From NCBI RefSeq assembly GCF_028713515.1, contig NZ_JAQTOD010000001.1, forward strand, positions 186,001-250,000: a stretch of 64,000 nucleotides of DNA, given 5' to 3'. The translations under genes were made by a program, and so were the position numbers. Below, piece by piece: positions 32,071-48,334 of this stretch (positions within the stretch are counted from its first letter, which is position 1; every line of letters begins with the position of its first letter). The stretch comes from Sulfurimonas sp. (GTDB lineage: Bacteria; Campylobacterota; Campylobacteria; Campylobacterales; Sulfurimonadaceae). The notes beneath the pieces were generated by a model, which worked only from the letters and a program-made list of their open reading frames with translations, was not told where the DNA came from and searched no databases.

Positions 32071-32571
32071 TTAGTTTGAAAAAGTTGCTTCTTCAACGAT
32101 TACTGAGTAGAAATAGCCATAACCAAAATCTTTATCAATAGCCACTTTTCCTTTAGCGGTAATATGATCACCCACTTTTGCCGATTGAGTATCTGATGTA
32201 AAAACTATATCACTAGTCTCTTTTGTACCACTGCCATCTTGGATATGAATCCAATTTTTGCCCATAATTGCTTCTGAAACTTTAACAACATTTCCATGAA
32301 TAGAGATAACTTTTCCGCTTAACTCACTTTTTTTTGCATAAAGATCAGCAATAGTAAGTCCTCCGCTAGCCTGTGCTTTTTCGTGTTGATGACCCTCGTG
32401 TCCTTGCTCAGGCTGATTTGCAGGCTGATTTAATTGTAATTGTTGTAGAGGTGCTTGAGCTTCTGTAGCTGGTTTTTGAGATGTCTTATTTGCCTCTTCA
32501 ATTTTATCGTTACATCCGCTGAGAGCAAAACACGCAACTAAACTTAGTGCAATAATACGACTTTGAATCAT
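32071..32571 (-). CDS. NrfJ-like lipoprotein with His-rich linker and OB-like domain
   Basis: The 166-residue lipoprotein has lipobox FALSGC (Cys 20). A Gln/Pro/His-rich linker (QGHEGHQHEKAQ) at about 55-70 is followed by a ~95-residue beta domain (LSGKVISIHGNVVKVSEAIMGKNWIHIQDGSG, KVGDHITAKGKVAIDKDFGYGYFYSVIVEEA). This resembles the OB-fold exported proteins annotated NrfJ, found near nitrite-reductase and other cytochrome c operons. It lies divergently next to the cytochrome locus, so a role in haem or metal supply or cytochrome maturation is plausible but unproven. Confidence 0.72.
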   Translation of the reverse strand: MIQSRIIALSLVACFALSGCNDKIEEANKTSQKPATEAQAPLQQLQLNQPANQPEQGHEGHQHEKAQASGGLTIADLYAKKSELSGKVISIHGNVVKVSEAIMGKNWIHIQDGSGTKETSDIVFTSDTQSAKVGDHITAKGKVAIDKDFGYGYFYSVIVEEATFSN

Positions 32572-32761: not shown

Positions 32762-33109
32762 ATGATTAACAAATTTATTGTATTAGTTGTTTTTGTATAT
32801 GGAACTGCACTTTTTGCAGGAGTGAACAGTGAGTCTGGTTCCGCTATTTTTAGTGAGCGTGGTTGCGCTATGTGTCATGCAAAAGATAATGATACTGTTG
32901 GACCATCTATTCGAATGATTGGGATTCGTTATAGCGGTAATGAAAATAAACTTGTTGCATACCTAAAAGGTCAAAGTCAGCCGATTGTTTATCCAGAGAG
33001 AGATGGGATGATGCGCCCTCAGCTTATGAAGATAGGAAATCTTTATGAGGATGAGTATCGTTCATTGGCACGATATATGATCCAAGCATTTATGCGTACA
33101 GATTTTTAG
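32762..33109 (+). CDS. Small monoheme cytochrome c
   Basis: The 115-residue protein has a Sec signal peptide (to about ..ALFAG) and one haem site CAMCH with VGPSIRMIG after it. A Met-rich stretch (RDGMMRPQLMKIG) supplies a likely distal Met ligand. It is a class I periplasmic cytochrome c and probably shuttles electrons between the inner membrane and the multiheme proteins downstream. The next gene starts 38 bases later. Confidence 0.9.
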   Translation: MINKFIVLVVFVYGTALFAGVNSESGSAIFSERGCAMCHAKDNDTVGPSIRMIGIRYSGNENKLVAYLKGQSQPIVYPERDGMMRPQLMKIGNLYEDEYRSLARYMIQAFMRTDF

Positions 33110-33147
33110 TAGATTAGATAGAATTTAGATTAAGGAAAACATGAGAT

Positions 33148-34368
33148 ATGTATAAAAAAATTACAAAATTGGCAGTAGTTCTTATGATAGCAAGTGGGTT
33201 TGTGTTTACGGAACTTGCAGTAGCTGGAAGTGAACCAGTTAAGGTTGTTGCTGCTCCAATAGAGCGCCCAGATTTTGAGCCAAATCTTAAAAGTGCCAAA
33301 AAGGTAGTTCATCCACCATATGAGATGGCAAAAGCAGATAAAGATTGCTCATTTTGTCATACAGAAAAAGATGGTAAAAGCGGTGCCTTAAAGATGGATA
33401 TGCCTGACCTTTGTAGTCAGTGCCATGAAGCAAAAGATAGCAAAAAATTTATACATGGTCCAGTTGGTGCAGGTGCTTGTACTGCTTGTCATGATCCACA
33501 CGAATCTAACAATATGAAGCTACTTCGCTTCTCAAATATAAATCAACTCTGCACATCTTGTCATGCAGACAAAGGTGTATTTTTGAAAACAACAAAGCAT
33601 ATTCATCCTCCAGTGCAAGATCAGTGCACAAACTGTCATGATCCTCATACAGAGAATTTTAAATTTCAACTTAAAGCGGATGGCAATAAGGATTTGTGTC
33701 TTATGTGCCATGTAGAGAAGAAAGAGCATTTGGCAAAAGTAACGCATAAACATGGTGCATTAGACCGACCTAAGAAATGTCTAGAGTGTCACAACCCTCA
33801 TGGAACAAACACTCCTAAAATGTTGGTTAAAGATACAGGCAAAGACCTATGTTTATCATGCCACAACAGCAAAATGACAACTGATGGTAGTAAGCTGACA
33901 AATATGGATCAGCATTTAAAAGACAATCCTGATCATCATGGACCTATTTTGTGGGGAGATTGTGCTGTGTGTCACAATCCTCATGGTTCAGATAATCTTA
34001 GAATGTTAAAAAAACCGTTTCCAGAAACATTCTATGCTAAGTTTGATGAAAAAAACTATATCTGTTTTGAGTGTCATGAGCCTGCAAAGATTCAAGATGA
34101 GATGACAACAACGGCAACAAATTTCCGTAATGGAGATAAAAATATGCACTTTATTCATGTTAATAAAGATAAAGGTCGTACTTGTAGAGCGTGTCATGAT
34201 TTTCATGGAACAAAAGAGTATCCACACCACTTGCGAACAAAAACAAGTTTTGGTGCGATTAATTTTCCAATTCGTTACATTGAAACTCCTACTGGAGGAT
34301 CGTGTGCTCCAGCGTGTCATGCACGACGCCATTACGATCGTAAAAAACCTATAGAAAATCTCAAGTAG
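33148..34368 (+). CDS. Multiheme cytochrome c, 11 CXXCH plus one CX3CH
   Basis: The 406-residue exported protein has a signal peptide (residues about 1-27, ..AVAGS) and eleven CXXCH sites: CSFCH, CSQCH, CTACH, CTSCH, CTNCH, CLMCH, CLECH, CLSCH, CAVCH, CFECH and CRACH. Several are followed by DPH/NPH, the 'doubled CXXCH' pattern. A twelfth candidate near the C-terminus has an extra residue (CAPACH). Extra His residues (THKHG, DHHGP) can give bis-His ligation. It is probably a periplasmic or outer-membrane electron conduit. The ATG at 33148 lies inside a second ATG context (see findings). It abuts the 8-heme gene with no gap. Confidence 0.93.
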   Translation: MYKKITKLAVVLMIASGFVFTELAVAGSEPVKVVAAPIERPDFEPNLKSAKKVVHPPYEMAKADKDCSFCHTEKDGKSGALKMDMPDLCSQCHEAKDSKKFIHGPVGAGACTACHDPHESNNMKLLRFSNINQLCTSCHADKGVFLKTTKHIHPPVQDQCTNCHDPHTENFKFQLKADGNKDLCLMCHVEKKEHLAKVTHKHGALDRPKKCLECHNPHGTNTPKMLVKDTGKDLCLSCHNSKMTTDGSKLTNMDQHLKDNPDHHGPILWGDCAVCHNPHGSDNLRMLKKPFPETFYAKFDEKNYICFECHEPAKIQDEMTTTATNFRNGDKNMHFIHVNKDKGRTCRACHDFHGTKEYPHHLRTKTSFGAINFPIRYIETPTGGSCAPACHARRHYDRKKPIENLK

Positions 34369-35400
34369 ATGAAACTCTTATCTACCCGTAAGAGGCTTGT
34401 GCCTCTTACATTTTTTTCACTTTTTTATTTAACCTCACTTACGCTTTCTGCTACTACACTTGAAATTATCCGTCCTCTTGCTAAAACTGTTATAGATGAG
34501 AGCGAAATAACTATTGTAGTTAAAGTTACAGATCCTCAGATTAGCAGAGTTGTCTTCACTGATGCGCAGGGAAATCAGTTTGAACGCGAGATAAAAGCAA
34601 ACAAACAGGTCTATTGTCAATCACTAAAAGCAAATCTTGGTGATAATCCTCTTAGCGTTGTTTCATACAAAGAGAAGGAAGTTAAAGAGAGTAAAACAAT
34701 TTCTGTCTATTTTCGCTCTGAGATTTCTCCTGGATTTCAAGATGAACCTTCGGGATTTAAAAAAAATCTTCTTCATAATGATAAAAATGAACAACTTTGT
34801 AAAACTTGCCATGTTATGAGCGACAAGCCGCGTAAAAAAGGTGAAATTGTTGAGAATCCAGAAGACTCCTCTTGCTATCAGTGCCATAAAAATTTAGTAT
34901 CACAAACTAAAGGACATGCTCCTGCTCTAAACTGGATGTGTACAGAGTGCCATACGGGAGAAAAGGGAGAGTATAGTAATGCAAAAGAAGATAAATCAAA
35001 ATATACAACTCCAGATCCAATTATGGATCGCTGTTTTGGCTGCCATGAAAATATCAAAAATGTTTGGTTTGCAAAAAAATCAGAACATGGACCTGTTCGT
35101 GATGGTAGATGTAATAGATGCCATAATCCCCATGGCTCAAATCAAGAGTTCTTTTTGCGCAAGTCGATTTGGGATCTGTGCACCACTTGTCACTCTGAAA
35201 AAGCAACTGGAGCTCATGTTATAAGTAGTTTTGTTAGAGGAAGCACTCATCCAACAAAAGGCGTGCAAGATCCTGCTCGTCCTGGAAGAGAGTTAGTTTG
35301 CTCAGGTTGTCATGATCCTCATGGGTCGGAGGGGATATTTTTGCTACGCTCAAAAGGTAAAACTGCTTTTAGTGTATGCGTTCGTTGTCACAAAAAATAA
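34369..35400 (+). CDS. Octaheme cytochrome c with N-terminal Ig-like domain
   Basis: The 343-residue protein begins with a signal (LTFFSLFYLTSLTLSA). A ~100-residue beta region (LEIIRPLAKTVIDESEITIVVKVTDPQISRVVF..) without haem sites looks like an Ig/cadherin-type fold. Eight CXXCH sites follow: CKTCH, CYQCH, CTECH, CFGCH, CNRCH, CTTCH, CSGCH and CVRCH, with NPHGS/DPHGS repeats. The beta domain could dock it to the outer membrane barrel or another cytochrome. It starts directly after the stop of the 11(+1)-heme gene, so the two are translationally linked. Confidence 0.92.
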   Translation: MKLLSTRKRLVPLTFFSLFYLTSLTLSATTLEIIRPLAKTVIDESEITIVVKVTDPQISRVVFTDAQGNQFEREIKANKQVYCQSLKANLGDNPLSVVSYKEKEVKESKTISVYFRSEISPGFQDEPSGFKKNLLHNDKNEQLCKTCHVMSDKPRKKGEIVENPEDSSCYQCHKNLVSQTKGHAPALNWMCTECHTGEKGEYSNAKEDKSKYTTPDPIMDRCFGCHENIKNVWFAKKSEHGPVRDGRCNRCHNPHGSNQEFFLRKSIWDLCTTCHSEKATGAHVISSFVRGSTHPTKGVQDPARPGRELVCSGCHDPHGSEGIFLLRSKGKTAFSVCVRCHKK

Positions 35401-35460
35401 ATAATTGTAATAATTGTAATAATATAAAGAAAATATTTTCTAATAAAACATTATTTTTTT

Positions 35461-35466
35461 TATAAT
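35461..35466 (+). promoter_or_regulatory. Candidate -10 element (distal) of the tetraheme gene
   Basis: TATAAT following an eight-T run, about 195 bases before the tetraheme ATG. If used, it gives a long leader containing the 35502-35519 hairpin. Confidence 0.35.
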
Positions 35467-35501
35467 TAATTTATCACATTGATTTACATTCATAAATAGA
35501 A

Positions 35502-35519
35502 CTCCCTTTCCCACGGGAG
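35502..35519. promoter_or_regulatory. Isolated GC-rich hairpin upstream of the tetraheme gene
   Basis: CTCCC / GGGAG with an 8-base loop is the only GC-rich element in the 260-base spacer 35401-35660. It could be part of a leader structure, or the terminator of the upstream cytochrome genes, although no T tract follows. Confidence 0.35.
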
Positions 35520-35591
35520 CGTGCTAAAACAACACTATATATTTTTATATTTTATTATAAAAACTAATATCTCCTATAACAAAAAAAGTTG

Positions 35592-35597
35592 TATACT
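35592..35597 (+). promoter_or_regulatory. Candidate -10 element (proximal) of the tetraheme gene
   Basis: GTATACT in an AT-rich context 64 bases before the ATG. The same GTATACT occurs in the promoter of the next unit (36468-36473). Confidence 0.45.
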
Positions 35598-35660
35598 TAA
35601 TAAAACATTAAGCATATCACTACTACAATTTAAGTACACAAAGTTTAAGGGAGGTGTACT

Positions 35661-36362
35661 ATGGTAACCTTTAAAAGGGTGGTGCAATCTATCGCAGTGA
35701 TAGTAGCATTGGGTTCGAGTGCTTTTGCAACATCAAATATTACGGCAACAAAACATAATCTTTCAGGTACTAGTACGGGAACAATTAAGTCTGATGCTGG
35801 GGATAATAATGACGAGATTTGTGTTTATTGTCATACTCCTCACGCCGCAAACACGGCTTTTGTTGGCGCACCATTATGGAATAAAGCAACTCCATCTGGT
35901 GTATTTACAATGTATGGTACTACTATTGGTGGAACAGCAACTGATGCAACGCCAAACAGCCCGTCTATGGCATGTTTAAGTTGTCACGATGGTGTTAGTG
36001 CAATTAACTCTATGGTTAATGCACCAGGCTCAGGTGGGTATGTTGCTCTTGGAGCTAATGTTAAGTTTGGTGCTACGGCTGCTGGGAGTGCGTTTGTAAT
36101 GCCTGCTGGAGTAACAGCAATCGGTACAGATTTGAGAAATGATCATCCAGTATCAATTACTTATGATCCAAGTAAAGCAGGGCTAAAAGCTACTGCAACA
36201 GCATTAACTGGTTGGGCTGGAGCAACGACTATCGCCAATCTTCTTAGAAACAGCAAAGTGGAGTGCGGTAGTTGTCATGATCCCCATGAAGCAACAAATG
36301 GAACATTCCTTCGTGTTGCAAATACAGGAAGTGCTTTATGTATAGGCTGTCACGCAAAATAA
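35661..36362 (+). CDS. OmcE-like tetraheme cytochrome c (candidate filament subunit)
   Basis: The 233-residue precursor has a signal peptide cleaved about after residue 23 (SSAFA). The mature part is rich in Gly, Ala, Ser and Thr and has four CXXCH sites (54-58, 105-109, 202-206, 227-231). Histidines are exactly eight: four in the motifs plus His32 (TKHN), His61 (TPH), His162 (NDHP) and His209 (DPH). All haems can thus be bis-His ligated with none spare. Size, haem number and the N-terminal His resemble OmcE of Geobacter, which polymerises into cytochrome filaments. A strong ribosome binding site (AAGGGAGG) and flanking promoter/terminator make it a separate, probably highly expressed unit. 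Confidence 0.88.
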   Translation: MVTFKRVVQSIAVIVALGSSAFATSNITATKHNLSGTSTGTIKSDAGDNNDEICVYCHTPHAANTAFVGAPLWNKATPSGVFTMYGTTIGGTATDATPNSPSMACLSCHDGVSAINSMVNAPGSGGYVALGANVKFGATAAGSAFVMPAGVTAIGTDLRNDHPVSITYDPSKAGLKATATALTGWAGATTIANLLRNSKVECGSCHDPHEATNGTFLRVANTGSALCIGCHAK

Positions 36363-36373
36363 TCTTCTTCATC

Positions 36374-36409
36374 TAGCAAATATCCACCTCTTCCGAGGTG
36401 GGTTTGCTA
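36374..36409 (+). terminator. Terminator of the tetraheme gene
   Basis: A strong nested hairpin: outer TAGCAAA / TTTGCTA and inner CCACCTC-TTCC-GAGGTGG. It begins 11 bases after the stop. Confidence 0.75.
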
Positions 36410-36443
36410 AAATTATCCATAATACTTATATTGTAAAACATCA

Positions 36444-36473
36444 TTGGCATTATCTTATGAAATTGTGTATACT
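36444..36473 (+). promoter_or_regulatory. Putative promoter of the NHL/PPIase/barrel unit
   Basis: TTGGCA (36444-36449), an 18-base spacer and TATACT (36468-36473) preceded by TGTG. The downstream ATG is at 36509. Confidence 0.55.
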
Positions 36474-36508
36474 CTATTTATTATGAAAATTAATGTAAGG
36501 AGATAAAG

Positions 36509-37576
36509 ATGATTAAGTTGGTGGTTTATAATTCAATGCTTTTTTTGGCATTGATTTTAGCAACTGGATGTGTTGCCCAAAAAGAGAAAATTACAGAGGG
36601 CTTTGTTGTTCCGGTGCTTCCGGAAGAACCAAGACTTTTTTATATTGCTACTTATACTGGAGAGCGTGATTTTGAGCAAGAGAGCACGCTTGATACTTTT
36701 ATAGGTGTTGAGGACGCTAAAGTGGCCAAGAGCATGGTGAAACCTTACGGCGTAGCTGCATATAAGGAAAAAATCTTTACAACTGATACCGCGCAAGGTG
36801 TTGTTTTTGTTATTGATCGAGCTACTAAAAAAGTATCTTTTTTGGGAGATAAGCCATCAGGTAAACTAGGGCTACCAGTAAGTATCGCTTTTGATGGTAA
36901 GGGACTTACTTATGTATCCGATGCGAAGTTAAAAAAAGTTTACGCATACGATGATAATGGTTCTGTTCAGAAAATTTTTGGTGTAAAGGATGAATTTACT
37001 CGGCCAACTGGAATTGCTATAAATAGAGATCTTGGATTACTTTATATAACTGATACACTCCAACATAATATTAAAGTTTATACTTTAGATGGAGTGATGG
37101 TTCAGACTATTGGAAAACGGGGAATAGAAGATGGTGAGTTCAACTATCCCACAAACCTTAGCATTGACCGCCGAAATGGGAATCTTATAGTTGGGGATAC
37201 ACAGAATTTTAGAATTCAGATTTTTGATAAAAATGGTAAATTTTTATCAAAGTTCGGAAAAGTTGGAGATAAGCCTGGCATGTTTGCTCGTCCAAAAGGC
37301 GTTGCAGTAGATAGTGAGGGTCATATTTATGCAGCAGATGCTGCTTTTAATAATGTTCAAATTTTTAATGATAAAGGAGAGCTTCTCCTCTATTTTGGCG
37401 GTGCCGGTACTACCCCTGGAACATTCCATCTACCGTCATCTCTTTATTGTGATGAAGAGGATAGGCTCTATACGACAGAAGGATTTAACTCAAAAGTTCA
37501 AGTCTTTCAATATATAAGTGAAGTTTGGAAGAAAAATCATCCAAATGAATATAAAAAACTTTTGGAGCCAAGATGA
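36509..37576 (+). CDS. NHL-repeat beta-propeller lipoprotein
   Basis: The 355-residue protein has a lipoprotein-type signal (ALILATGC, Cys 21; the lipobox has Ala at -3, so it is weak). About six NHL repeats follow, for example RPTGIAINRDLGLLYITDT, YPTNLSIDRRNGNLIVGDT and RPKGVAVDSEGHIYAADA, predicted to form a beta-propeller. It is 'protein-binding' rather than catalytic by appearance. The ribosome binding site is AAGGAGATAAAG. It overlaps the isomerase gene by 4 bases and has a paralogue at 40317-41345. Confidence 0.9.
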   Translation: MIKLVVYNSMLFLALILATGCVAQKEKITEGFVVPVLPEEPRLFYIATYTGERDFEQESTLDTFIGVEDAKVAKSMVKPYGVAAYKEKIFTTDTAQGVVFVIDRATKKVSFLGDKPSGKLGLPVSIAFDGKGLTYVSDAKLKKVYAYDDNGSVQKIFGVKDEFTRPTGIAINRDLGLLYITDTLQHNIKVYTLDGVMVQTIGKRGIEDGEFNYPTNLSIDRRNGNLIVGDTQNFRIQIFDKNGKFLSKFGKVGDKPGMFARPKGVAVDSEGHIYAADAAFNNVQIFNDKGELLLYFGGAGTTPGTFHLPSSLYCDEEDRLYTTEGFNSKVQVFQYISEVWKKNHPNEYKKLLEPR

Positions 37577-38517
37577 ATAGATTAGCTAAAAAAATTGTTG
37601 TTACTTTGTTGTTTGTGCTTACTTCTTCAGAGTTGTTTGCAGTAGTTGATAATGTAGTTGCAACAGTAAATGGTGTACCAATTTTAAAAAAACGAGTTGA
37701 TCGTGAAGTTACCGCTTTGATTCCTCAGGCGAGTTATCATGCTAATGTTGATGATGAAAAAATCAAAGAGCTAGAAAAAAAAGCAGTTGATAGTCTTATA
37801 AACAAAGAACTACTTTTTCAGTACGCTAAAAAACAGCAAATCTTAGTGTCTGATAAAGAACTTTCAGAGGCAGAAGAGGCGGTTGTTCGTGGATTTTCAG
37901 GGCGTAAAAATTTTCAACAAGCTCTAGCTCAGGCTAAAATACCACTAAGTGAGTTTCAAAATGAGTTAAAGACAGAGGAGTCTATCCGAAAGCTTTATGA
38001 GCAAAAAATTAAACTAACTTTTTCAGATGATGATCTTAAAGCCTATTATGAAAAAAATAAATATAAGTTTAAAGAGCCTGAAAAGATTGATGTTCAGATG
38101 ATTTATACTCGTAATAATCCAGAGGTAAAAAATGGAGGTCAGATTGCCAAAAAGCGAATAGATGAGGCAATGGCAAGTATTAAAAAAGGTGAAAATTTTG
38201 CAACTGTTGCATCTAAATACTCCAATGATATGACCCGTATTAAGGGCGGAAATTTGGGAATGATACATAAGGGCAGAATAGAAAATGCTATGGCAGAAAA
38301 AGTTGCTTTTGCTCTTAAAAAAGGAGAAACGAGCACTGTTGTTGAAACTGATGTGGGATGTTTTATTTTTCATCTTAACGGACGACAAGAAGCTGCTCAG
38401 CTTTCATTTGAAAAAGTCAAAGAGAGTCTTAGAGGTGAGCTAACTGCAAGTCGTGAGAAAGAGAAGATGGACTCTCTTTTGGAGTCTCTAAAAAAACAGG
38501 CAAAGATTAAAAGATAG
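37573..38517 (+). CDS. Periplasmic SurA/parvulin-type peptidyl-prolyl isomerase
   Basis: The 314-residue exported protein has a signal peptide (..SSELFA), a SurA-like helical chaperone region (VVATVNGVPILKKRVDREV..SLINKELLFQYAKKQ), then one parvulin domain (about 170-265: DVQMIYTR, AKKRIDEAMASIKKGENFATVASKYSND, GGNLGMIHKGR, FALKKGETSTVVETDVGCFIFHL) and a C-terminal helix. It probably folds or escorts an exported client, most likely the beta-barrel or cytochromes beside it. A PPIase (MccB) also accompanies the multiheme mcc operon of Wolinella. Confidence 0.92.
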   Translation: MNRLAKKIVVTLLFVLTSSELFAVVDNVVATVNGVPILKKRVDREVTALIPQASYHANVDDEKIKELEKKAVDSLINKELLFQYAKKQQILVSDKELSEAEEAVVRGFSGRKNFQQALAQAKIPLSEFQNELKTEESIRKLYEQKIKLTFSDDDLKAYYEKNKYKFKEPEKIDVQMIYTRNNPEVKNGGQIAKKRIDEAMASIKKGENFATVASKYSNDMTRIKGGNLGMIHKGRIENAMAEKVAFALKKGETSTVVETDVGCFIFHLNGRQEAAQLSFEKVKESLRGELTASREKEKMDSLLESLKKQAKIKR

Positions 38518-38536
38518 TTGATGTGAGCAACAATTT

Positions 38537-40294
38537 ATGAAAAAACATATGGTTGCTCGGGCTATTATCGCTTTAATCTCCTCTTTTACTATACTTCAAG
38601 CGGAGTCAAATGGATTTTATGGAAATTTAGAGTATGGATATACAGAAAATAGAGCTAGTGATGTAAACAATAAGTCATCACAAGAGGCTATGATTCAAAA
38701 CTATACTCTTGGAAAAACAGGATATGTTTATAATCCTAATTTGATGAGCTATTTGGTGCAAGGATCACTAATGGTGACAGATACCACAAATAAAACAAAT
38801 GATCAATCTTATGATTCTAAAAATAAGAGTATGAATTATCGTGTTAGTACTGATTTTATCCGCTCGACAAAATATCCTTTTTCACTTTATGGTGAAAAAA
38901 CATCAAATCCATATTCTAGCATTCAAGCTGGTTCATCTATGAGCTATAACCAAACAGATGATAGATATGGTGTTAATGGTTCAGTTGAACTTCCATATTT
39001 CAATCTTAGGTATAGTGGCGAGTCGTCTGATATGCAACGAGATGAGACTAATGCAGATGAGACTCGTAAAAACAAAAATTATACACTTTCTGTTGATAAA
39101 AGATTTAATGATGGCACATTCTCTGCTGTTTATAGTAATCGAACTCGTGACTATTTACGAGATGATCGCTATTTTCAATCCAAACAAGAGTGGAGTGATC
39201 AAGCACAAGATATAAGAATAAATGGTTCTTGGAATGTAGATAAAACACTCCGCATTGACTCATATCTTACCTATATGGATAGTAGTTATAGTGACATGAA
39301 AAATATGATGGGAAGTGTAAATATAAACTGGAATCCAACTGCCAAGTATATGGCAAGTGTTGGTGCAACAGCTAGTACAATATCTTCTGGCGGTAAGAGC
39401 AGTGATACCGTTATGCTTTTTGGAAACTCTTCATATATGGTAACTCCGGAGTTTACAACAACTCAAAATGTATCGCTTTATCGTGTTGCTGGTGATTATT
39501 CTGATATGACTATGGGAACGGCGATGTTGGGTGGGCATTATACTAAGGCCCTAGAGGATAATCTTGTGTTGACTGCTGGTCTTGATGTTATAGGTAAAGT
39601 TGAGAAAAACAAAGCTGTCTCTGATATAAATATAACAGCCCCAGATAGAAATAGTTACTCCTATACTGCCAGTTTTGGTGCCTCAAAAAGAGTTGAGGCA
39701 ATCAGCTCAAGCCTCTCTGGGAATTTATCATATTATAATTCTGAATCAACTCTCAATGATAGCACGAAGCGTATTTCGGCCAATATGATGCTCTCTACCA
39801 TGATAAGTAATAATTTTTATAATACACTATCGGGATATTATACCAGTGAAACTGGTAGGTACTATACAGATCCAACAACTGGCGCTATCCAGATGGATTT
39901 AGAGTCAGTTACTGTTGATAATAACTTAAGATATTGGTATGATGTTGGATATGATGGAAAGATATCTCTTGGTGGTGGAGTAACTTATAGTGAGTCACAG
40001 TATAACCAGCAGGAGAAACTAGTTCGTATTTTCCCTCATGCTGAGGGCAGTTTTACATATAAATTTTTTAGGACACTACTTTTTAACTCTAACCTTAGTG
40101 CATCACAAGACTCTGTAAGTGACTTAACAAATTACTCAGCTTATATAGGTTTAAATTATACATTAAGAAAAATTATAATGTCTTTTGGAACAAGATATTT
40201 TTATCAAACTAGTGGAGCCTCATCGGGCGCAAGTGGAGTCAATCAAGAAAGTACTCAAAGTTCAGTTTTTTTCAAGATATCTAGATCATTTTGA
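38537..40294 (+). CDS. Large outer-membrane beta-barrel (porin-like) protein
   Basis: The 585-residue protein has a signal peptide (to about LQAES) followed by many alternating polar/hydrophobic, Tyr-rich strands and ends in a terminal Phe (FFKISRSF), as outer-membrane barrels do. It contains no cysteine, so it is not itself a cytochrome and lacks the N-terminal CXXC of MtrB. The size would allow about 22-28 strands. In context it is the likely outer-membrane channel or sheath through which a cytochrome is exported or electrons cross. The ribosome binding site is weak. Confidence 0.85.
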   Translation: MKKHMVARAIIALISSFTILQAESNGFYGNLEYGYTENRASDVNNKSSQEAMIQNYTLGKTGYVYNPNLMSYLVQGSLMVTDTTNKTNDQSYDSKNKSMNYRVSTDFIRSTKYPFSLYGEKTSNPYSSIQAGSSMSYNQTDDRYGVNGSVELPYFNLRYSGESSDMQRDETNADETRKNKNYTLSVDKRFNDGTFSAVYSNRTRDYLRDDRYFQSKQEWSDQAQDIRINGSWNVDKTLRIDSYLTYMDSSYSDMKNMMGSVNINWNPTAKYMASVGATASTISSGGKSSDTVMLFGNSSYMVTPEFTTTQNVSLYRVAGDYSDMTMGTAMLGGHYTKALEDNLVLTAGLDVIGKVEKNKAVSDINITAPDRNSYSYTASFGASKRVEAISSSLSGNLSYYNSESTLNDSTKRISANMMLSTMISNNFYNTLSGYYTSETGRYYTDPTTGAIQMDLESVTVDNNLRYWYDVGYDGKISLGGGVTYSESQYNQQEKLVRIFPHAEGSFTYKFFRTLLFNSNLSASQDSVSDLTNYSAYIGLNYTLRKIIMSFGTRYFYQTSGASSGASGVNQESTQSSVFFKISRSF

Positions 40295-40316
40295 AACATC
40301 AAGCAAAGGAGCGTCA

Positions 40317-41345
40317 ATGACAAAAAAACTTTTTATACAGACGGTATTGGTTGGTCTCACAATTTCTTCGTTGTATGCAGTTGAGCAGGAGAGAATTGTC
40401 TGGCCATCCGCACCTGATCCAGCTAGATTTGAGTATGTAGGTAGCATAACAAAGAGTGAAGATTTAAATATAAAACGAGGATTTTGGGGAAAAATATGGG
40501 ATTTTTTAGCTGGTAATGAGCAAAAAATTTTAGCTGCCCCGTTTGGGATTCATGTTGATGAGAGTGGCAAGCTGTATGTTGCTGATGGGGGGAATCAAGC
40601 TCTATTTATATTTGACCCAATTGAAAATGAAATGAAGGTGATTGAGGGGTTTAATGATACAAGACTTGTCTCCCCTGTGGATGTTATTACTGACAACAAA
40701 GGAAATATTTATCTCTCTGATTCGGTGTTGGAGAGAGTTATTGTTTTTGATAAAAAAGGTAAGTTTTTATACACAATTGGAGGAGATAAGGTAAAAATTA
40801 CTCGTCCAACAGGTATGGCAATAAATAACAACTTAAACAGAATCTATATATCAGACACCGTTGCTGGGACTATTTTAGTCTTTTCACTTGAGGGAAAATT
40901 TATAACATCGATTGGTACAGAAGGCTCTGGAGATGGAGAGTTTAATCGCCCAACATATTTGGCTTTAGATAAAAATTACAATCTGTATGTTTCCGATTCG
41001 ATGAATCATCGTGTTGTGATTTTAGATAAAGATGGAAAGTTTATCCGTACATTTGGCAAGCTTGGCGATAATATCGGAAATTTTGGAAGTCCACGAGGTA
41101 TCGCTCTTGATGATGACCTCAATATTTATGTAGCTGATTCTCTTTTTCATGCTGTTCAAATCTTTAATCAAAAAGGAGAACTGTTGTTATCCTTAGGAAG
41201 TTTTGGAGCAGAAAAAGGCGAGTTTTCCTCGCCTAAAGATATCGCATTTGACACCAATGGTAGCCTATATGTAGCTGATTTTTATAATATGCGAGTTCAG
41301 AAGTTGAAAAAACTTCCAAATCCTGAAAATGTGGAGTTACCATGA
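40317..41345 (+). CDS. Second NHL-repeat beta-propeller protein, exported
   Basis: The protein is 342 residues from the ATG at 40317 (MTKKLFIQTVLVGLTISSLYAVEQ), which has AAAGGAGCGTCA before it. A longer frame upstream only overlaps the barrel gene. The signal peptide ends near SLYA with no lipobox Cys. NHL repeats include RPTGMAINNNLNRIYISDT, RPTYLALDKNYNLYVSDS, SPRGIALDDDLNIYVADS and SPKDIAFDTNGSLYVADF. It is paralogous to the 36509 protein but soluble. It overlaps the next gene by 4 bases (ATGA). Confidence 0.9.
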   Translation: MTKKLFIQTVLVGLTISSLYAVEQERIVWPSAPDPARFEYVGSITKSEDLNIKRGFWGKIWDFLAGNEQKILAAPFGIHVDESGKLYVADGGNQALFIFDPIENEMKVIEGFNDTRLVSPVDVITDNKGNIYLSDSVLERVIVFDKKGKFLYTIGGDKVKITRPTGMAINNNLNRIYISDTVAGTILVFSLEGKFITSIGTEGSGDGEFNRPTYLALDKNYNLYVSDSMNHRVVILDKDGKFIRTFGKLGDNIGNFGSPRGIALDDDLNIYVADSLFHAVQIFNQKGELLLSLGSFGAEKGEFSSPKDIAFDTNGSLYVADFYNMRVQKLKKLPNPENVELP

Positions 41346-43429
41346 AGAATATATTTAATATCACTCTACTTACTATTGCCATCATCTTACTATCTTTAGA
41401 CAATGCTAATGGAGGAGTTGTCAACACTAAGCACAATATGTCAACTGCGGGTCCTGGAACAATCAAAGCAACAAGCGAGCCGGAAGTTTGTGTTTTTTGC
41501 CATATTCCACATAGTGCTCAGACTGGAACACCACTTTGGAATCGTAGTATGCCAGCATCTTCATACACTATGTATAACAGTGACTACATGAGACGGATGA
41601 ACTATCCAACTCCTGCATCACTTGGAAATACAGTTGGAACACCAGGAACACTTTCTCGTCAATGCTTGAGCTGTCACGATGGCACTGTTGCGGCTGGATC
41701 TGTCTATTTGGTTCGTGGTACGCTACTCGGAGGTACTCAAATAGCTATGAGTGGTGTTAACCCTGATGGAACAATGCTCTCATCGGCAGCTGGCTATGTT
41801 GGGACTGATTTAAGAGGTCACCATCCGGTTGGAATTGAATATAACCACACCGTGACTAAAAACTTTGGCAGTGGAACTAGAGGAATAGAGCTTTTAGTAA
41901 CGCCAGGAGCCGCGATTAAACTATACACTTATAGTGGTAAGCAGTATGTAGAGTGTTCCTCTTGCCATGATCCTCATACAGAAACTAAAAAGTTTCTTCG
42001 TTACTCAGCTGGAGGAAGTCATGGGGCTAATGTATATGGTACTTGTACTTCATGTCATGATAAAGCAAACTGGGCAACTGGGGCTCATGCTACCGTAACA
42101 AATAGTTATACTGATGCAACCGTTAATGCAGCGTATGAGACAAGCACTGTTTCTTCACTTGGGTGTGTAAACTGTCATAAACCACACAATGGAGAAGGGA
42201 AGCCATATCTGTTGCGCAAAGTTGAAGAAAATACCTGTTTTCAAGGAGCAGGTAGTGGCACAACTTCAACTGTCCCGTGTCATGGAACTGGTGGAGCAAA
42301 AGATATTCAGACATCACTTCAAAGAATGTACTCGCACCCTACAGATTTGATTTCTGGACAACACAGTAATCTTGATGTTTTATATGGCACTGGCGTGGTG
42401 AGTGATGGTGGAGGAGCTATAACTTGGAATACAAATAAACATGCTGAGTGTACAGATTGCCATAACCCACATCAGGCAAAAGCTGGAAGTCATATTGATC
42501 CTCCGGATGGGGTAAACACTATGTACCCATCAGCACCAACAAATCTTATATCCAAATCAGGTCCACTAAGAGGGGCGATTGGAGTTGAACCTACATGGCC
42601 AGCTACCGGATGGACTCAACCAACTTCGTTTACTACGCTAGAGAGTGCAACCTATGAGTATCAGGTCTGCTTAAAATGCCACTCTCAATGGGCGCTTGGA
42701 AGTTCTGCTACGCCAGTATCTTCTCAGACCATAACAAAAACAGGAGAGCCAGCAACTGATCAGGCATGGGAGTTTAATCCGAAGAATAAATCGGCTCATC
42801 CGATAGTTATGTCTCATAATGCGATGAAAACTTATGGCGGAAATGCAGCAAAAAATCCTGCAGCTGAGGGACGGTATGCAGACTCTTTGACAAGTGCATA
42901 TTTAAAAACTCCATGGTCAAATAATCCTGGAAACAACACAATGTACTGCTCCGACTGTCATGGAGCTGATGAGCAGACATCCGACCCACGAGGCCCACAC
43001 GGTTCGAGTTACAAGTATATGCTCAAGGGACGCGGTAACTATTGGCCATATAAACCAAACGGTCAATTATGGGGTATTGATGATACAACAGTGGATAATC
43101 CTGATCTTTTCTGCCAAAATTGTCATAGAACTGAAGCAGTTGGAGTTCATGTATTTAAATCTGATCGTGGTAGATTTAATAATATGCTTTGTGTTAACTG
43201 TCATTCAGGCATTCCACATGGTTCAAAAATATCTCGTCTGATGGCATATGCTGCTATGCCACATCCCTATAATTTTAATGGCAATGCAAAAATGAAAGGA
43301 TTTCGTGCTTTAGGGGCAGCTAATTATGTAACAGCAAATAGAGGAAAAGGAAACCATTGGACCAATGATACGGGCACATGTGGTTGTCATGGATCAGCAG
43401 TAGGAGGAGCTTATGATGTCTATCCATAA
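41342..43429 (+). CDS. Large multiheme cytochrome c with tetraheme module and atypical haem motifs
   Basis: The 695-residue exported cytochrome has ten CXXCH sites (CVFCH, CLSCH, CSSCH, CTSCH, CVNCH, CTDCH, CLKCH, CSDCH, CQNCH, CVNCH) plus a long-spaced CX13CH (CFQG...VPCH) and a C-terminal CXCH (CGCH). The first ~235 residues repeat the motif order of the tetraheme protein at 35661: TKHN, C-x2-CH-x-PH, PLWN, YTMY, CLSCHDG, GTDLR-x-HHPV, VECSSCHDPH, FLR, CTSCH. It is likely surface or outer-membrane located, and may anchor or cap a tetraheme filament. The last bases overlap the next gene. Confidence 0.92.
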   Translation: MKNIFNITLLTIAIILLSLDNANGGVVNTKHNMSTAGPGTIKATSEPEVCVFCHIPHSAQTGTPLWNRSMPASSYTMYNSDYMRRMNYPTPASLGNTVGTPGTLSRQCLSCHDGTVAAGSVYLVRGTLLGGTQIAMSGVNPDGTMLSSAAGYVGTDLRGHHPVGIEYNHTVTKNFGSGTRGIELLVTPGAAIKLYTYSGKQYVECSSCHDPHTETKKFLRYSAGGSHGANVYGTCTSCHDKANWATGAHATVTNSYTDATVNAAYETSTVSSLGCVNCHKPHNGEGKPYLLRKVEENTCFQGAGSGTTSTVPCHGTGGAKDIQTSLQRMYSHPTDLISGQHSNLDVLYGTGVVSDGGGAITWNTNKHAECTDCHNPHQAKAGSHIDPPDGVNTMYPSAPTNLISKSGPLRGAIGVEPTWPATGWTQPTSFTTLESATYEYQVCLKCHSQWALGSSATPVSSQTITKTGEPATDQAWEFNPKNKSAHPIVMSHNAMKTYGGNAAKNPAAEGRYADSLTSAYLKTPWSNNPGNNTMYCSDCHGADEQTSDPRGPHGSSYKYMLKGRGNYWPYKPNGQLWGIDDTTVDNPDLFCQNCHRTEAVGVHVFKSDRGRFNNMLCVNCHSGIPHGSKISRLMAYAAMPHPYNFNGNAKMKGFRALGAANYVTANRGKGNHWTNDTGTCGCHGSAVGGAYDVYP

Positions 43430-43907
43430 TCGCATGAAGTGTTATTTAGTAGTAGTTGCTCTTGTGTTCTTCTCTCCAGCAGTTATGCTTGGGGCAGAAA
43501 AAGAGGATGGAATAAAAGAGACGGTTGTTCGGTATAACCAAGCGCTAATAGAATCAGCAAGAACAGGAAAAACTGCAACACTGGAACCCTTAGCAACTAA
43601 AAAAATTGTTACTAAAACATATGCGTGGATTCACTCATGGCAAGATAGTAATCTCTATATGCGCGCCAAACTAAATAAACTTAAATTTGAAGAGATTCGA
43701 GTTGATAATAATGCAAGTATGGTTAGAACATATGAGGAGTGGAGCTATGATTATTATGATGCAGAAAATAAAAAAGATGCAATGCCGACAACACAGGTTG
43801 TATATCAGATGAAATACACATTGTACCCTCATCAAAAGCGATGGATTATTAATGATGTTAAAGTTATTAACGAAAAAAGTACACCTCTGGAAAAAGCCAA
43901 AAAATAA
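43413..43907 (+). CDS. Exported NTF2-like (IMS-domain-like) protein
   Basis: The 164-residue protein has a signal peptide (LVVVALVFFSPAVMLGAE), then an alpha+beta domain: an N-terminal helix with VRYNQALIESARTGKTATLEPLAT and strands ending KYTLYPHQKRWIINDVKV. This resembles NTF2/ARC6-IMS-like folds. It contains no haem motif. Two adjacent ATGs (43413, 43416) follow GGAGGAGC, and the gene overlaps the large cytochrome by 17 bases. It is an accessory protein of the locus with unknown role. Confidence 0.75.
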   Translation: MMSIHNRMKCYLVVVALVFFSPAVMLGAEKEDGIKETVVRYNQALIESARTGKTATLEPLATKKIVTKTYAWIHSWQDSNLYMRAKLNKLKFEEIRVDNNASMVRTYEEWSYDYYDAENKKDAMPTTQVVYQMKYTLYPHQKRWIINDVKVINEKSTPLEKAKK

Positions 43908-43926
43908 CTCAGGGCGTCACTTTTTG

Positions 43927-43960
43927 AGACAAGAATTATAATTTTTTTCTATTCTTGTCT
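43927..43960. terminator. Hairpin between the cytochrome operon and ccsBA
   Basis: AGACAAGAAT / ATTCTTGTCT is a perfect 10-bp stem with a 14-base loop that itself contains TATAAT. There is no strong T tract after it, so it may terminate the operon or act as an operator for ccsBA. Confidence 0.5.
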
Positions 43961-44026
43961 GTTTGTATAACGCGTTTACTTCATTCGTGGTATAAATCTT
44001 TTACTAAAATTTACAAAAGGGAATTC

Positions 44027-47000
44027 ATGGCGAATCAACTTAAAAAAATAGGATCATTTTTGGCATCAATGCCGTTTATGGTGGCACTGCTACTAATATT
44101 TGGTATTGCAAGCGGTGTTGCAACATTTATAGAGAATGACCATGGAACAGAGACTTCATGGGCTCTCGTTTATGGTGCCAAATGGTTTGAACTTCTTCAA
44201 ATTATGCTTGGAGTTGGAATCTTTGCAAATATCATCCGCTTTCGTATGTTTACACTTAAAAAACTACCAACTTTTATTTTTCATGTGGCATTTTTAATAA
44301 TCTTAATTGGCTCTGGTATAACTCGCTATTTTGGATACGAAGGAGTTATGCATATTCGTGAAGGAGACACAGAAAACCGTATGCTCTCAAGCGAGGCTTT
44401 TTTGCAGATTGATGCAACTCACGGCACACAAAAATATCATGCTGAAAAAGCAGTTTATGCAGCAGGGCTAAAAGATGGCGATTTGAATGAACATCTGGAT
44501 GTTGGTGGCAAGGCGTTAACAGTTAAGTTTAAGCAGTTTATCAAAAAAGCAGCTAAAACAGCAGTTGAAGATCCTGCTGGAAAAGCAGTTGTAATGTTTG
44601 TTATTCCGGCTCCAAGTGGACCTGAGAAGTTCTTTTTATCTAAAGGCGAGTTTGTTGATGTTGGACCAATAGCTATCTATTTTGACAAAGCTCCAGATGT
44701 TGAGCGTTTCTACATCAGCATATCTGAAAAAGATGGTAAGTTCTCATTTGTCTCTAACAGCAATGTTGAGTGGCTAAGAATGGAAGATAAACTCTCTGGA
44801 AGTGTGATTGCTGGAAATGAAGGAGAATTTGAAGCGCGCCGTTTATATACTGTGAATGGTATCCAAATAGCAACCAAATCAGTTCTCTCTCATGGTGCAG
44901 TCAAGGTTATACCTGAAGATGAGTATCGCGCTTCGCTCAAGATGGATATGAATACAAACGGTGAAAATCTCTCTGCTCTTATTGTTGAGGCTGAACTAGA
45001 TGGACAAAAGCGTGAAGTTGCTCTAATGGGGCAAGGAAAACGCTTTAAAGGATTTACAGAGAATTTTCGTTTAGGAGATGTTGATGTCTCTCTTGAGTGG
45101 GGAGCTAAGCAGATAGAGTTACCATTTTCTGTTAAGCTTGATGATTTTGTAATGGACAAATATCCAGGATCAATGAGCCCATCATCATACGAGAGTCATG
45201 TTCACTTGATTGATGAAAAAGCTAAAATAAACGATAGTTTTAGGATTTTTATGAATAACCCTATGGAGCATGGTGGTTTTAAATTTTTTCAATCATCTTT
45301 TGATCAAGATGAGATGGGAACGGTTCTCTCTGTAAACCGCGATCCAGGAAAAATACCAACTTATATTGGATATATATTGTTAGCGCTAGGACTGTTCCTT
45401 AATTTTTTCAATCCTAATGGTAGATTTGGTAAATTGGCTCGTACTCGTTATGATAGGTCAGCACCATCTGTGATGATTGGGTTAGTGTTTTTGGCGGGGC
45501 TATTTATGGCTCAACCAGCATTTGCATACGCTGAGTATCAAAAAGAACAAACAGCAGATCTCTCTACTGCCTTAGAGACAGTAAAAAAAGTAGATTATGC
45601 GTCCGCCGAAGAGTTTGGTACGATTTTAATGCAAGATATGGGTGGACGGATTAAGCCGATAGACTCTATTGCTATTGACATAGTAAATAAACTCTCTGGT
45701 CAAACAACTATTATGGGATTGTCTGCAAATCAGATAATCCTTGGTATGGCATCTAAACCAGTACTTTGGCAAAAAATTGCAATGATTAAAGTTAAACACT
45801 CAAAAATCAAAGCAATGCTTGGAATTGAAGATGAGAAAAAATATATTGCATTTAATGATGTTTTAGATCCAGCTGGTGTGTATAAGCTTGGAGATGCTGT
45901 TCAGGCATCCATTACAAAACGACCTGCTGAGCGAGATGAGTTTGATAAAGAGCTGATTAAACTAGATGAGAAGTTAAATATTGCATATAGTGTATATGCT
46001 GGTGATTTTATGCGAATTTTCCCTCTTGTCGGAGATAAGGCAAATGCGTGGCTTAGTCCAAGTGATGCACTTAAAGCACTTTCTCCAGAGGATTCTCAAA
46101 AAATTAGACAAATTCTCCAACTAAACTATACTGGAATTAATGAAGGGATAGAGAAGGGGAATTGGAAAACTTTTAGTGATGCAACTAAGATGATAATCGG
46201 CTTTCAGAAATTAAATGGAGCTACAATTTATCCTTCTGAATTACGAGTTAATGCAGAGTTACTCTACAATAAAGCATCTATTTTTGAGAGATTGATTCCT
46301 CTATATCTTTTTGCAGGTCTAACTCTTTTAATACTTATTTTTGTTCGTCTTTTCAAACCTGCTCTAAATTTAGAGAAAGTGCAAAAGGTTGTTCTTGGAG
46401 TTTTAATAATTGGGTTTATTGCTCACACAGCAAATCTAGGTTTACGGTGGTATGTTTCAGGGCATGCGCCGTGGAGTGATGGATATGAGTCAATGATTTA
46501 TATTGCGTGGACAATTATTTTAGCGGGAATTATGTTTGCAAGACAATCAGAATTTGCAATTGCATCAACAGGAATTCTATCTGGAGTTGCTCTTTTTGTT
46601 GCTCATTTAACATGGTTAGACCCACAAATAACAAATCTTGTTCCGGTACTTAAATCATACTGGCTATCAATCCATGTGTCTGTTATTACTGCTAGTTACG
46701 GCTTTTTGGGACTAAGCGCACTGCTTGGGCTTATATCGCTTGTGCTTTTCATTATGATTGACCGCGTTAAAAATGAAAATACAAAACGACAAACCATTAT
46801 CAGTATCCGAGAGGCAACAAGAATCAGTGAAATGGCAATGATTATTGGGCTCTCGCTTGTTACTCTTGGGAATTTCATTGGTGGAGTATGGGCAAATGAG
46901 TCATGGGGTCGTTATTGGGGATGGGATCCAAAAGAGACATGGGCATTGGTTACGATTCTTGTTTATGCTACTGTAGTTCACTTGCGTTTTATACCGAAGT

Positions 47001-47242
47001 TGAATTCAGTCTTTAACTTTACGGTGGCATCTGTTGTTGCTTATAGTTCGGTAATTATGACTTATTTTGGGGTTAATTATTATCTATCTGGATTACACTC
47101 TTATGCGGCTGGTGATCCAGTGCCTATGCCGACTTGGGTTTATTATGCGGTGGCTACAGTGCTGTTGTTGATTCTTTTAGCCTCTAGAAATCGTAAAGCA
47201 GTTTCGGGAAGTCTGAAAAATCCAAACACAGCAGAAGGGTAG
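44027..47242 (+). CDS. ccsBA: Fused cytochrome c haem ligase CcsBA (ResB-ResC)
   Basis: The protein is 1071 residues from the ATG at 44027 (MANQLKKIGSFLASM), which follows AAAAGGGAATTC. The N-terminal ResB/CcsB half has transmembrane segments near the start, a large periplasmic domain (about 130-440) and a helix at PTYIGYILLALGLFLNFF. A central signal-like helix (MIGLVFLAGLFMAQPAFA) follows. The C-terminal CcsA half carries HTANLGLRW, the WWD haem-handling loop (ESWGRYWGWDPKETWALV) and conserved His. CcsBA exports haem and ligates it to CXXCH cysteines. Its position directly after the cytochromes suggests it serves them. Confidence 0.95.
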   Translation: MANQLKKIGSFLASMPFMVALLLIFGIASGVATFIENDHGTETSWALVYGAKWFELLQIMLGVGIFANIIRFRMFTLKKLPTFIFHVAFLIILIGSGITRYFGYEGVMHIREGDTENRMLSSEAFLQIDATHGTQKYHAEKAVYAAGLKDGDLNEHLDVGGKALTVKFKQFIKKAAKTAVEDPAGKAVVMFVIPAPSGPEKFFLSKGEFVDVGPIAIYFDKAPDVERFYISISEKDGKFSFVSNSNVEWLRMEDKLSGSVIAGNEGEFEARRLYTVNGIQIATKSVLSHGAVKVIPEDEYRASLKMDMNTNGENLSALIVEAELDGQKREVALMGQGKRFKGFTENFRLGDVDVSLEWGAKQIELPFSVKLDDFVMDKYPGSMSPSSYESHVHLIDEKAKINDSFRIFMNNPMEHGGFKFFQSSFDQDEMGTVLSVNRDPGKIPTYIGYILLALGLFLNFFNPNGRFGKLARTRYDRSAPSVMIGLVFLAGLFMAQPAFAYAEYQKEQTADLSTALETVKKVDYASAEEFGTILMQDMGGRIKPIDSIAIDIVNKLSGQTTIMGLSANQIILGMASKPVLWQKIAMIKVKHSKIKAMLGIEDEKKYIAFNDVLDPAGVYKLGDAVQASITKRPAERDEFDKELIKLDEKLNIAYSVYAGDFMRIFPLVGDKANAWLSPSDALKALSPEDSQKIRQILQLNYTGINEGIEKGNWKTFSDATKMIIGFQKLNGATIYPSELRVNAELLYNKASIFERLIPLYLFAGLTLLILIFVRLFKPALNLEKVQKVVLGVLIIGFIAHTANLGLRWYVSGHAPWSDGYESMIYIAWTIILAGIMFARQSEFAIASTGILSGVALFVAHLTWLDPQITNLVPVLKSYWLSIHVSVITASYGFLGLSALLGLISLVLFIMIDRVKNENTKRQTIISIREATRISEMAMIIGLSLVTLGNFIGGVWANESWGRYWGWDPKETWALVTILVYATVVHLRFIPKLNSVFNFTVASVVAYSSVIMTYFGVNYYLSGLHSYAAGDPVPMPTWVYYAVATVLLLILLASRNRKAVSGSLKNPNTAEG

Positions 47243-47322: not shown

Positions 47323-47784
47323 CTATTTTTTAAGTTTCTTCTCTTCCCACAGTTTTGTTGCTTCTATGATTGTTCCATACTGTGGATTGGCAATAAAATA
47401 GTCACGCATAAAGTTTTTATACTCAATTTGTTCAGGTGTTAAAACTTCGTCACTATACGCATTTTCATCTACGGGTGGTTGAGGTGGTGTTAGTGTTGAG
47501 ATATAGCTTGCAACATCTTTTATATCAGCATCACTTAGCTTTACTGCTTGACCACTCATCATGCTACTGAAGCCATATTGATTTAGTTTGTTGGCTTTAT
47601 ATGCTTTTAGTTTTTCAATAATTTTTTCCTCTTTCCATCCAGCAATAATCTCGCTTACACCAAGAGATTTTTTCTCTCCATGTTCTCCGTGACACACCAT
47701 ACAACGCTTAAATACAGATGCTCCATCTGCCATTGATAATGTTGCTGTACTAGTAAATATAACTAATAATATTTTAAGTTTCAT
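47323..47784 (-). CDS. Monoheme cytochrome c with C-terminal extension
   Basis: The 153-residue exported protein has a signal peptide (to about LSMA), haem site CMVCH followed by GEHGEKKSLG, and a class I cytochrome c core with likely Met ligand (FSSMMSGQAVKLSDADIKDVASYISTL). After residue ~95 a Pro-rich linker leads to a ~50-residue charged helical extension of unknown role. It faces ccsBA and diverges from the c553-type gene at 48047. Confidence 0.9.
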   Translation of the reverse strand: MKLKILLVIFTSTATLSMADGASVFKRCMVCHGEHGEKKSLGVSEIIAGWKEEKIIEKLKAYKANKLNQYGFSSMMSGQAVKLSDADIKDVASYISTLTPPQPPVDENAYSDEVLTPEQIEYKNFMRDYFIANPQYGTIIEATKLWEEKKLKK

Positions 47785-48046: not shown

Positions 48047-48334
48047 ATGAAAAAAATAATACTTGGGGTTGCTGTAGCTGCAGCTACACTATTTGCTGCT
48101 GATGGCGCAGCTATCTATGCAAAATGTGGTAGTTGTCATGGTAAAGATGGTAAAAATACAGCGATATCAGGTGTTGCTCTTTCAGGAGATGCGGCTTCAA
48201 TTGAGAAAAAATTGAATGGTTACAAAGATGGAAGTTTTGGTGGAGCTAAGAAAGGTATGATGGCACCACAGGTAGCATCTCTTTCAGCTGATGATGTTAA
48301 AGCAGTTTCTGAGTATATTGCAGGTTTAAAATAG
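48047..48334 (+). CDS. Cytochrome c553-type monoheme protein
   Basis: The 95-residue precursor has a signal peptide (MKKIILGVAVAAATLFAADG). The haem site is CGSCHGKDG and the likely axial Met lies in KKGMMAPQVASLSADDVKAVSEYIAGL, a compact class I cytochrome c like the c553 of Campylobacterota. It is a soluble periplasmic electron carrier, probably between the bc1 complex and terminal enzymes. The ribosome binding site AAAGGAGAT is excellent, and a TACAAT (48008-48013) may be its -10. Confidence 0.93.
   Translation: MKKIILGVAVAAATLFAADGAAIYAKCGSCHGKDGKNTAISGVALSGDAASIEKKLNGYKDGSFGGAKKGMMAPQVASLSADDVKAVSEYIAGLK

Follow-up and report, generated by a model that had tools for sequence, protein, structure and literature searches.

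The closest described relatives of the locus reported here are the Uet and MHCR clusters. The Uet (undecahaem electron transfer) cluster encodes the tetrahaem cytochrome UetA, the peptidyl-prolyl isomerase (PPIase) UetB, the barrel UetC, the propellers UetHI, the large UetJ and the trihaem UetDEG (PMC10734462). The MHCR cluster, described from a vent electroautotroph, includes propellers and cytochrome c biogenesis genes (PMC9751133; also PMC13293256), and the same two papers place related clusters in cathode-enriched autotrophs. SEEP-SRB operons combine a PPIase and a propeller with OmcE-type genes (PMC12246660). The OetABI/OmcS-OmcX clusters of Geobacter and syntrophic sulfate reducers (PMC10553843), which we liken to the present locus by description, also bring together a barrel, periplasmic and extracellular cytochromes and a filament cytochrome. 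Sulfurimonas is dominant in many redoxclines (PMC10066037) and one species of the genus respires MnO2 (PMC9122950). A Sulfurimonas living beside cable bacteria was reported to have dmsE/mtoA-like genes and perhaps “an undetected porin” (PMC11748539), and a review that used data mining places Campylobacterota among the candidate electroautotrophs (PMC12575090). We found no paper linking OmcE or nanowires to Campylobacterota loci. To our knowledge the phylum is not known for nanowires, and its extracellular wiring has been little described.

The window, the whole stretch of 64,000 nucleotides of Sulfurimonas sp. DNA that was analysed, carries at 32762-47242 a locus that we judge, with a probability of about 0.75, to build an outer-membrane electron conduit of the Uet/MHCR kind equipped with an OmcE-type extracellular cytochrome. 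It consists of eleven genes, A to K, all on the plus strand:

A, 32762..33109, +, exported mono-haem class I cytochrome c (Pfam Cytochrom_C 3.2e-07; 1 CXXCH)
B, 33148..34368, +, exported MtrA/DmsE-like putative wire (11 CXXCH and 1 CX3CH; best PDB match 6r2q_A, 5.3e-18)
C, 34369..35400, +, exported octahaem cytochrome with an N-terminal domain of ~110 residues (Paired_CXXCH 1.4e-29; 8 CXXCH)
D, 35661..36362, +, OmcE-type tetrahaem cytochrome, candidate filament subunit (7tfs 1.6e-27; 9yuq 1.4e-25)
E, 36509..37576, +, NHL beta-propeller lipoprotein (NHL 1.5e-21; lipobox LATGC)
F, 37573..38517, +, SurA-N/parvulin PPIase (Rotamase_3 2e-17; SurA_N_3 1.5e-14)
G, 38537..40294, +, 585-aa cysteine-free MtrB-like outer-membrane beta-barrel with 28 modelled strands (AF2 pLDDT 88.8; 6r2q_B Z 21.1)
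H, 40314..41345, +, second exported NHL beta-propeller, without lipobox (NHL 1.8e-32)
I, 41342..43429, +, 695-aa cytochrome with an N-terminal OmcE module, candidate filament base or adaptor (10 CXXCH, CX13CH and a degenerate terminal site)
J, 43413..43907, +, small exported protein, weakly NTF2-like (NTF2_YvbJ 0.0034, under cut-off; position conserved)
K, 44027..47242, +, CcsBA cytochrome c haem ligase, dedicated copy (CcsB 2.7e-53)

A first-pass annotation, made by reading the sequence, had listed these eleven genes, with five cytochromes holding 34 CXXCH sites and three atypical ones, and all were recovered where it had placed them. The CXXCH sites are divided as A 1, B 11, C 8, D 4 and I 10; the atypical ones are a CX3CH in B (C386), a CX13CH in I (C299) and the CGCH that ends I (C680). 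Domain searches agreed with it on the two NHL propellers, the SurA-N/parvulin protein, the 585-residue protein free of cysteine and the CcsB-containing haem ligase. The exported protein J is present and conserved in place, but its NTF2-like label is weak, the match (E 0.0034) falling short of the family cut-off. A lipobox is present in none of the five cytochromes of the locus. A nine-pair terminator-like hairpin with a T tract lies at 34388-34409, which is ~20 bases into gene C as listed; the true start of C may be further on, or the hairpin may be an attenuator. The locus is flanked by genes for a small lipoprotein and two small class I cytochromes (32071-32571 on the minus strand, 47323-47784 on the minus strand and 48047-48334 on the plus strand); none of the three appeared as a conserved part in the relatives inspected.

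When named genomes were scanned with an OmcE-type alignment, 79 loci came up, in Campylobacterota, Aquificota, Nitrospinota, Pseudomonadota, Nitrospirota, Bacteroidota and others. A core recurs at many of them: a propeller, the tetrahaem D, a PPIase, a barrel, varying small cytochromes, a propeller and the large cytochrome I. The annotation had pointed to NHL and PPIase genes near OmcE-type genes; the association is found here across phyla and is also in print (PMC10734462, PMC9751133, PMC12246660). Relatives of D, F, E/H and I stand in the same order in Uet-type loci (e.g. L077, L082 and L120), where UetJ corresponds to I by both homology and position. The barrels of the Uet-type and Campylobacterota-type loci are homologous (hhalign 99.5%, E 1e-22, 522 columns), and an ordinary porin family used as a control reached 0.1% against either barrel group. 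Propeller H and the propeller of a Nitrospinota locus form one clade (100/100). The mapping was built on the Uet-type loci found here and the published descriptions, not on Tenderia sequences. D, the propellers, the PPIase, the barrel and I have their counterparts in the Uet/MHCR cluster described from bacteria that grow on cathodes. With that cluster, known from Ca. Tenderia electrophaga, Ca. Thiomicrorhabdus electrophagus and Gallionella, the locus shares a tetrahaem cytochrome, a PPIase, a barrel, two propellers and a large multihaem cytochrome in last place. As there is no trihaem gene, the UetDEG counterpart, within the locus, we class it as a variant and not as a member. The Campylobacterota version has the MtrA-like B and the octahaem C instead of the three trihaem UetDEG; its protein I carries a CX12-13CH site, and the clade is a different one.

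The order A-K is kept partly or wholly in five genomes of the same genus. In G032 it is complete, with one additional gene between D and E; G002 has A through at least part of K in the same order, and in G017, G021 and G030 the genes seen are in order up to the end of the contig or of the stretch covered. Outside the family, in the same order-rank taxon, the order is also kept in G397, G191, G106, G103 and G293, with an additional tetrahaem gene between E and F in G191 and G106. Gene-order conservation among Campylobacterota, which the annotation had proposed to look for, is thus found, at protein identities to the window of 22-68%, some of the low values being cross-matches where the true gene fell outside the stretch compared. 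Recurrence of the order in other genomes argues that the locus is not a chance assembly. B is 64-68% identical in close relatives, D 44-67% and I 45-53%; barrel G, at 22-32%, is the least conserved protein. Among 397 Campylobacterota genomes, 12 have a relative of D (one a marginal case), spread over 6 of 68 genera; relatives of I occur in 18 of the 135 genomes of the genus (13 of the 79 good ones). The locus is therefore patchy in its distribution.

Comparison of gene D with OmcE, which the annotation had also proposed, revealed full-length homology to the solved filament of Geobacter sulfurreducens (7TFS; E 1.6e-27 over residues 12-233). D also matches 9yuq, another solved 16-chain multihaem cytochrome (E 1.4e-25). 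In an alignment of 82 D sequences all four CXXCH are invariant (82/82). Exactly four further histidines are conserved, H32 (80/82), H61 (81/82), H162 (82/82) and H209 (82/82), which is the number required for bis-histidine ligation of four haems; OmcE likewise has four CXXCH and four distal histidines. OmcE and OmcS each have a haem whose ligand histidine comes from the neighbouring subunit (PMC9473688), and the conserved N-terminal histidine of D is compatible with such inter-subunit ligation in a filament. D may thus polymerise into a filament. OmcE is a solved filament, whereas D is known here from its sequence, and the locus differs further in having a second OmcE module fused into protein I. 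A further, shorter OmcE-like tetrahaem gene lies outside the locus in the same genome (L136:5739-6287; C2, ~148.7 kb).

The model of barrel G, made from an 18-sequence alignment, has a mean pLDDT of 88.8 (AF2) and 28 long strands. Its best solved match is MtrB (6r2q_B; Foldseek E 3.5e-9), not a substrate-specific porin. VIA-align gave Z 21.1 over 453 residues with a high rmsd of 10.9 Å, the next entry having Z 17.8. Searches of the PDB, Pfam and NCBIfam with the G sequence returned no useful match, and none to MtrB; no family model covers the barrel. G, missed by the Pfam and NCBIfam models, is a candidate for the undetected porin of Sulfurimonas. The best PDB match of B is 6r2q_A (5.3e-18), which we take to be MtrA from the entry title and general knowledge, the molecule name printed for the chain being a different one; TIGR03508 scores 140 bits against a cut-off of 192. 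B presumably sits inside barrel G. The annotation's idea of a distinct type lacking MtrA and MtrB counterparts was therefore too strong. Domain, family and lipobox searches detected no MtrC/OmcA-type surface decahaem lipoprotein in the locus. With B as a possible MtrA counterpart and the barrel as a possible MtrB counterpart by structure, the locus resembles MtrCAB; unlike MtrCAB it has no MtrC/OmcA-type lipoprotein, and its barrel has 28 modelled strands, is cysteine-free and has no sequence match to MtrB.

A second multihaem cluster lies at C1:758127-762838 (L135:6127-10839). Besides a member of the NapC/NirT family (1.2e-29) and a trihaem protein, it encodes two proteins resembling C and a paralogue of B with 507 aa (43%). 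Of the 11 Campylobacterota genomes clearly positive for D, 8 have a full-length relative of the trihaem protein; none of the other 386 does (Fisher 1.2e-14, a test that ignores shared descent). In G021 a similar cluster lies ~6 kb downstream of K, on the contig that carries the locus. The NapC module tracks the locus, which links the outer-membrane genes to the quinol pool. The annotation's proposal of an outer-membrane or extracellular electron conduit is supported by the OmcE homology of D and the matches of B to MtrA and of the barrel to MtrB, and none of the outcomes that it had named as counter-evidence emerged. Electrons would pass between the quinol pool and the NapC-type cytochrome module, from there to the periplasmic C and A, to the MtrA-like wire B inside barrel G, to the large cytochrome I and finally to D in filament or polymer form. 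Roles in assembly or anchoring would fall to propellers E and H, the PPIase F and J, and K would attach haem. The gene set and order, the homologies, the barrel model and the co-occurrence are observed, and from them we infer the physiological role. If the conduit reading is true, a Sulfurimonas-type cell is wired from its inside to outside solids with a nanowire-type cytochrome gene.

The barrel could also be given another task. Its gene lies between chaperone-like genes and adjoins those of exported cytochromes, the neighbouring cytochromes of Uet-type and Bacteroidota loci vary while F or the propellers stay, and G is poorly conserved compared with B. These observations would suit a machinery in which G, F and the propellers serve mainly as an export or assembly gate for the extracellular D and I, with electrons crossing otherwise or via a soluble shuttle. 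We regard this as unlikely, given that the best solved match of G, MtrB, is the sheath of a cytochrome wire and that the locus itself includes a gene for an MtrA-like protein. It is very improbable that the locus specifies a periplasmic multihaem oxidoreductase or electron store unconnected to the outside. No surface anchor is seen in the multihaem B and C or in the second, likewise multihaem cluster; however, the set regularly includes a very wide barrel and an OmcE-type protein, and a separate catalytic subunit is absent from the locus.

The annotation had taken the organism for a sulfur/hydrogen oxidiser, and for hydrogen the genome gives no support: no NiFe hydrogenase large subunit was found in its 99.97% complete assembly. 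SoxB was not found there either, and to lack both is unusual for a Sulfurimonas-like chemolithotroph. The genome does have NapA and a cbb3 oxidase, as well as two FCSD-like and SQR-like flavoproteins (sulfide-dehydrogenase-like), and the conduit could serve either to take up electrons, with nitrate or oxygen accepting them, or to dispose of electrons derived from sulfide. We lean slightly towards uptake from solid donors. The same machine running in reverse, delivering electrons to extracellular Mn(IV), Fe(III) or sulfur during sulfide oxidation, is a serious contender at somewhat less than even odds. Sulfurimonas marisnigri couples sulfide oxidation to MnO2 (PMC9122950), Geobacter OmcE takes part in transfer to insoluble Fe(III)/Mn(IV) (PMC9473688), and the genome encodes the FCSD-like and SQR-like flavoproteins. 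On the other side, NapA and the cbb3 oxidase provide for soluble acceptors, and related clusters are those of cathode-enriched autotrophs (PMC9751133, PMC13293256).

Protein I is a candidate for the link between conduit and filament. Its residues 13-239 match OmcE (7tfs, E 3.3e-25), and this N-terminal module is 34% identical to D. At residues 299-314 it has a CX13CH site (CX12CH in relatives), of which C299, C313 and H314 are invariant. The CX12-13CH form arises from an insertion where other I proteins carry CXXCH; it is confined to the clade of Campylobacterota, Persephonella (Aquificota) and Nitrospinota, with CXXCH in other phyla. A predicted structure of I had a pLDDT of 35.7 and was not used. 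A second CcsBA copy, 45% identical to K, is encoded elsewhere in the genome. Wolinella has a dedicated CcsBA for a CX15CH site, and by analogy K may serve the CX12-13CH site of I. That it does so exclusively is less credible, as the Bacteroidota locus L128 has K but no such site. Tentatively, and with rather more doubt than confidence, we suggest that I is the base of a nanowire: its OmcE module would cap or seed a filament of D, and its other haems, including the K-attached one at CX12-13CH, would dock on the MtrAB-like B-G, so that the locus and the NapC module together would encode the complete wiring from the quinol dehydrogenase of the inner membrane out to the filament. The widely conserved pair of an OmcE-type cytochrome and an OmcE module fused in a large cytochrome offers a testable answer to how a filament is connected to the cell. 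In a Persephonella MAG (L065:17815-20694) I, J and A form a single 959-residue frame, which is either a fusion or an assembly frameshift.
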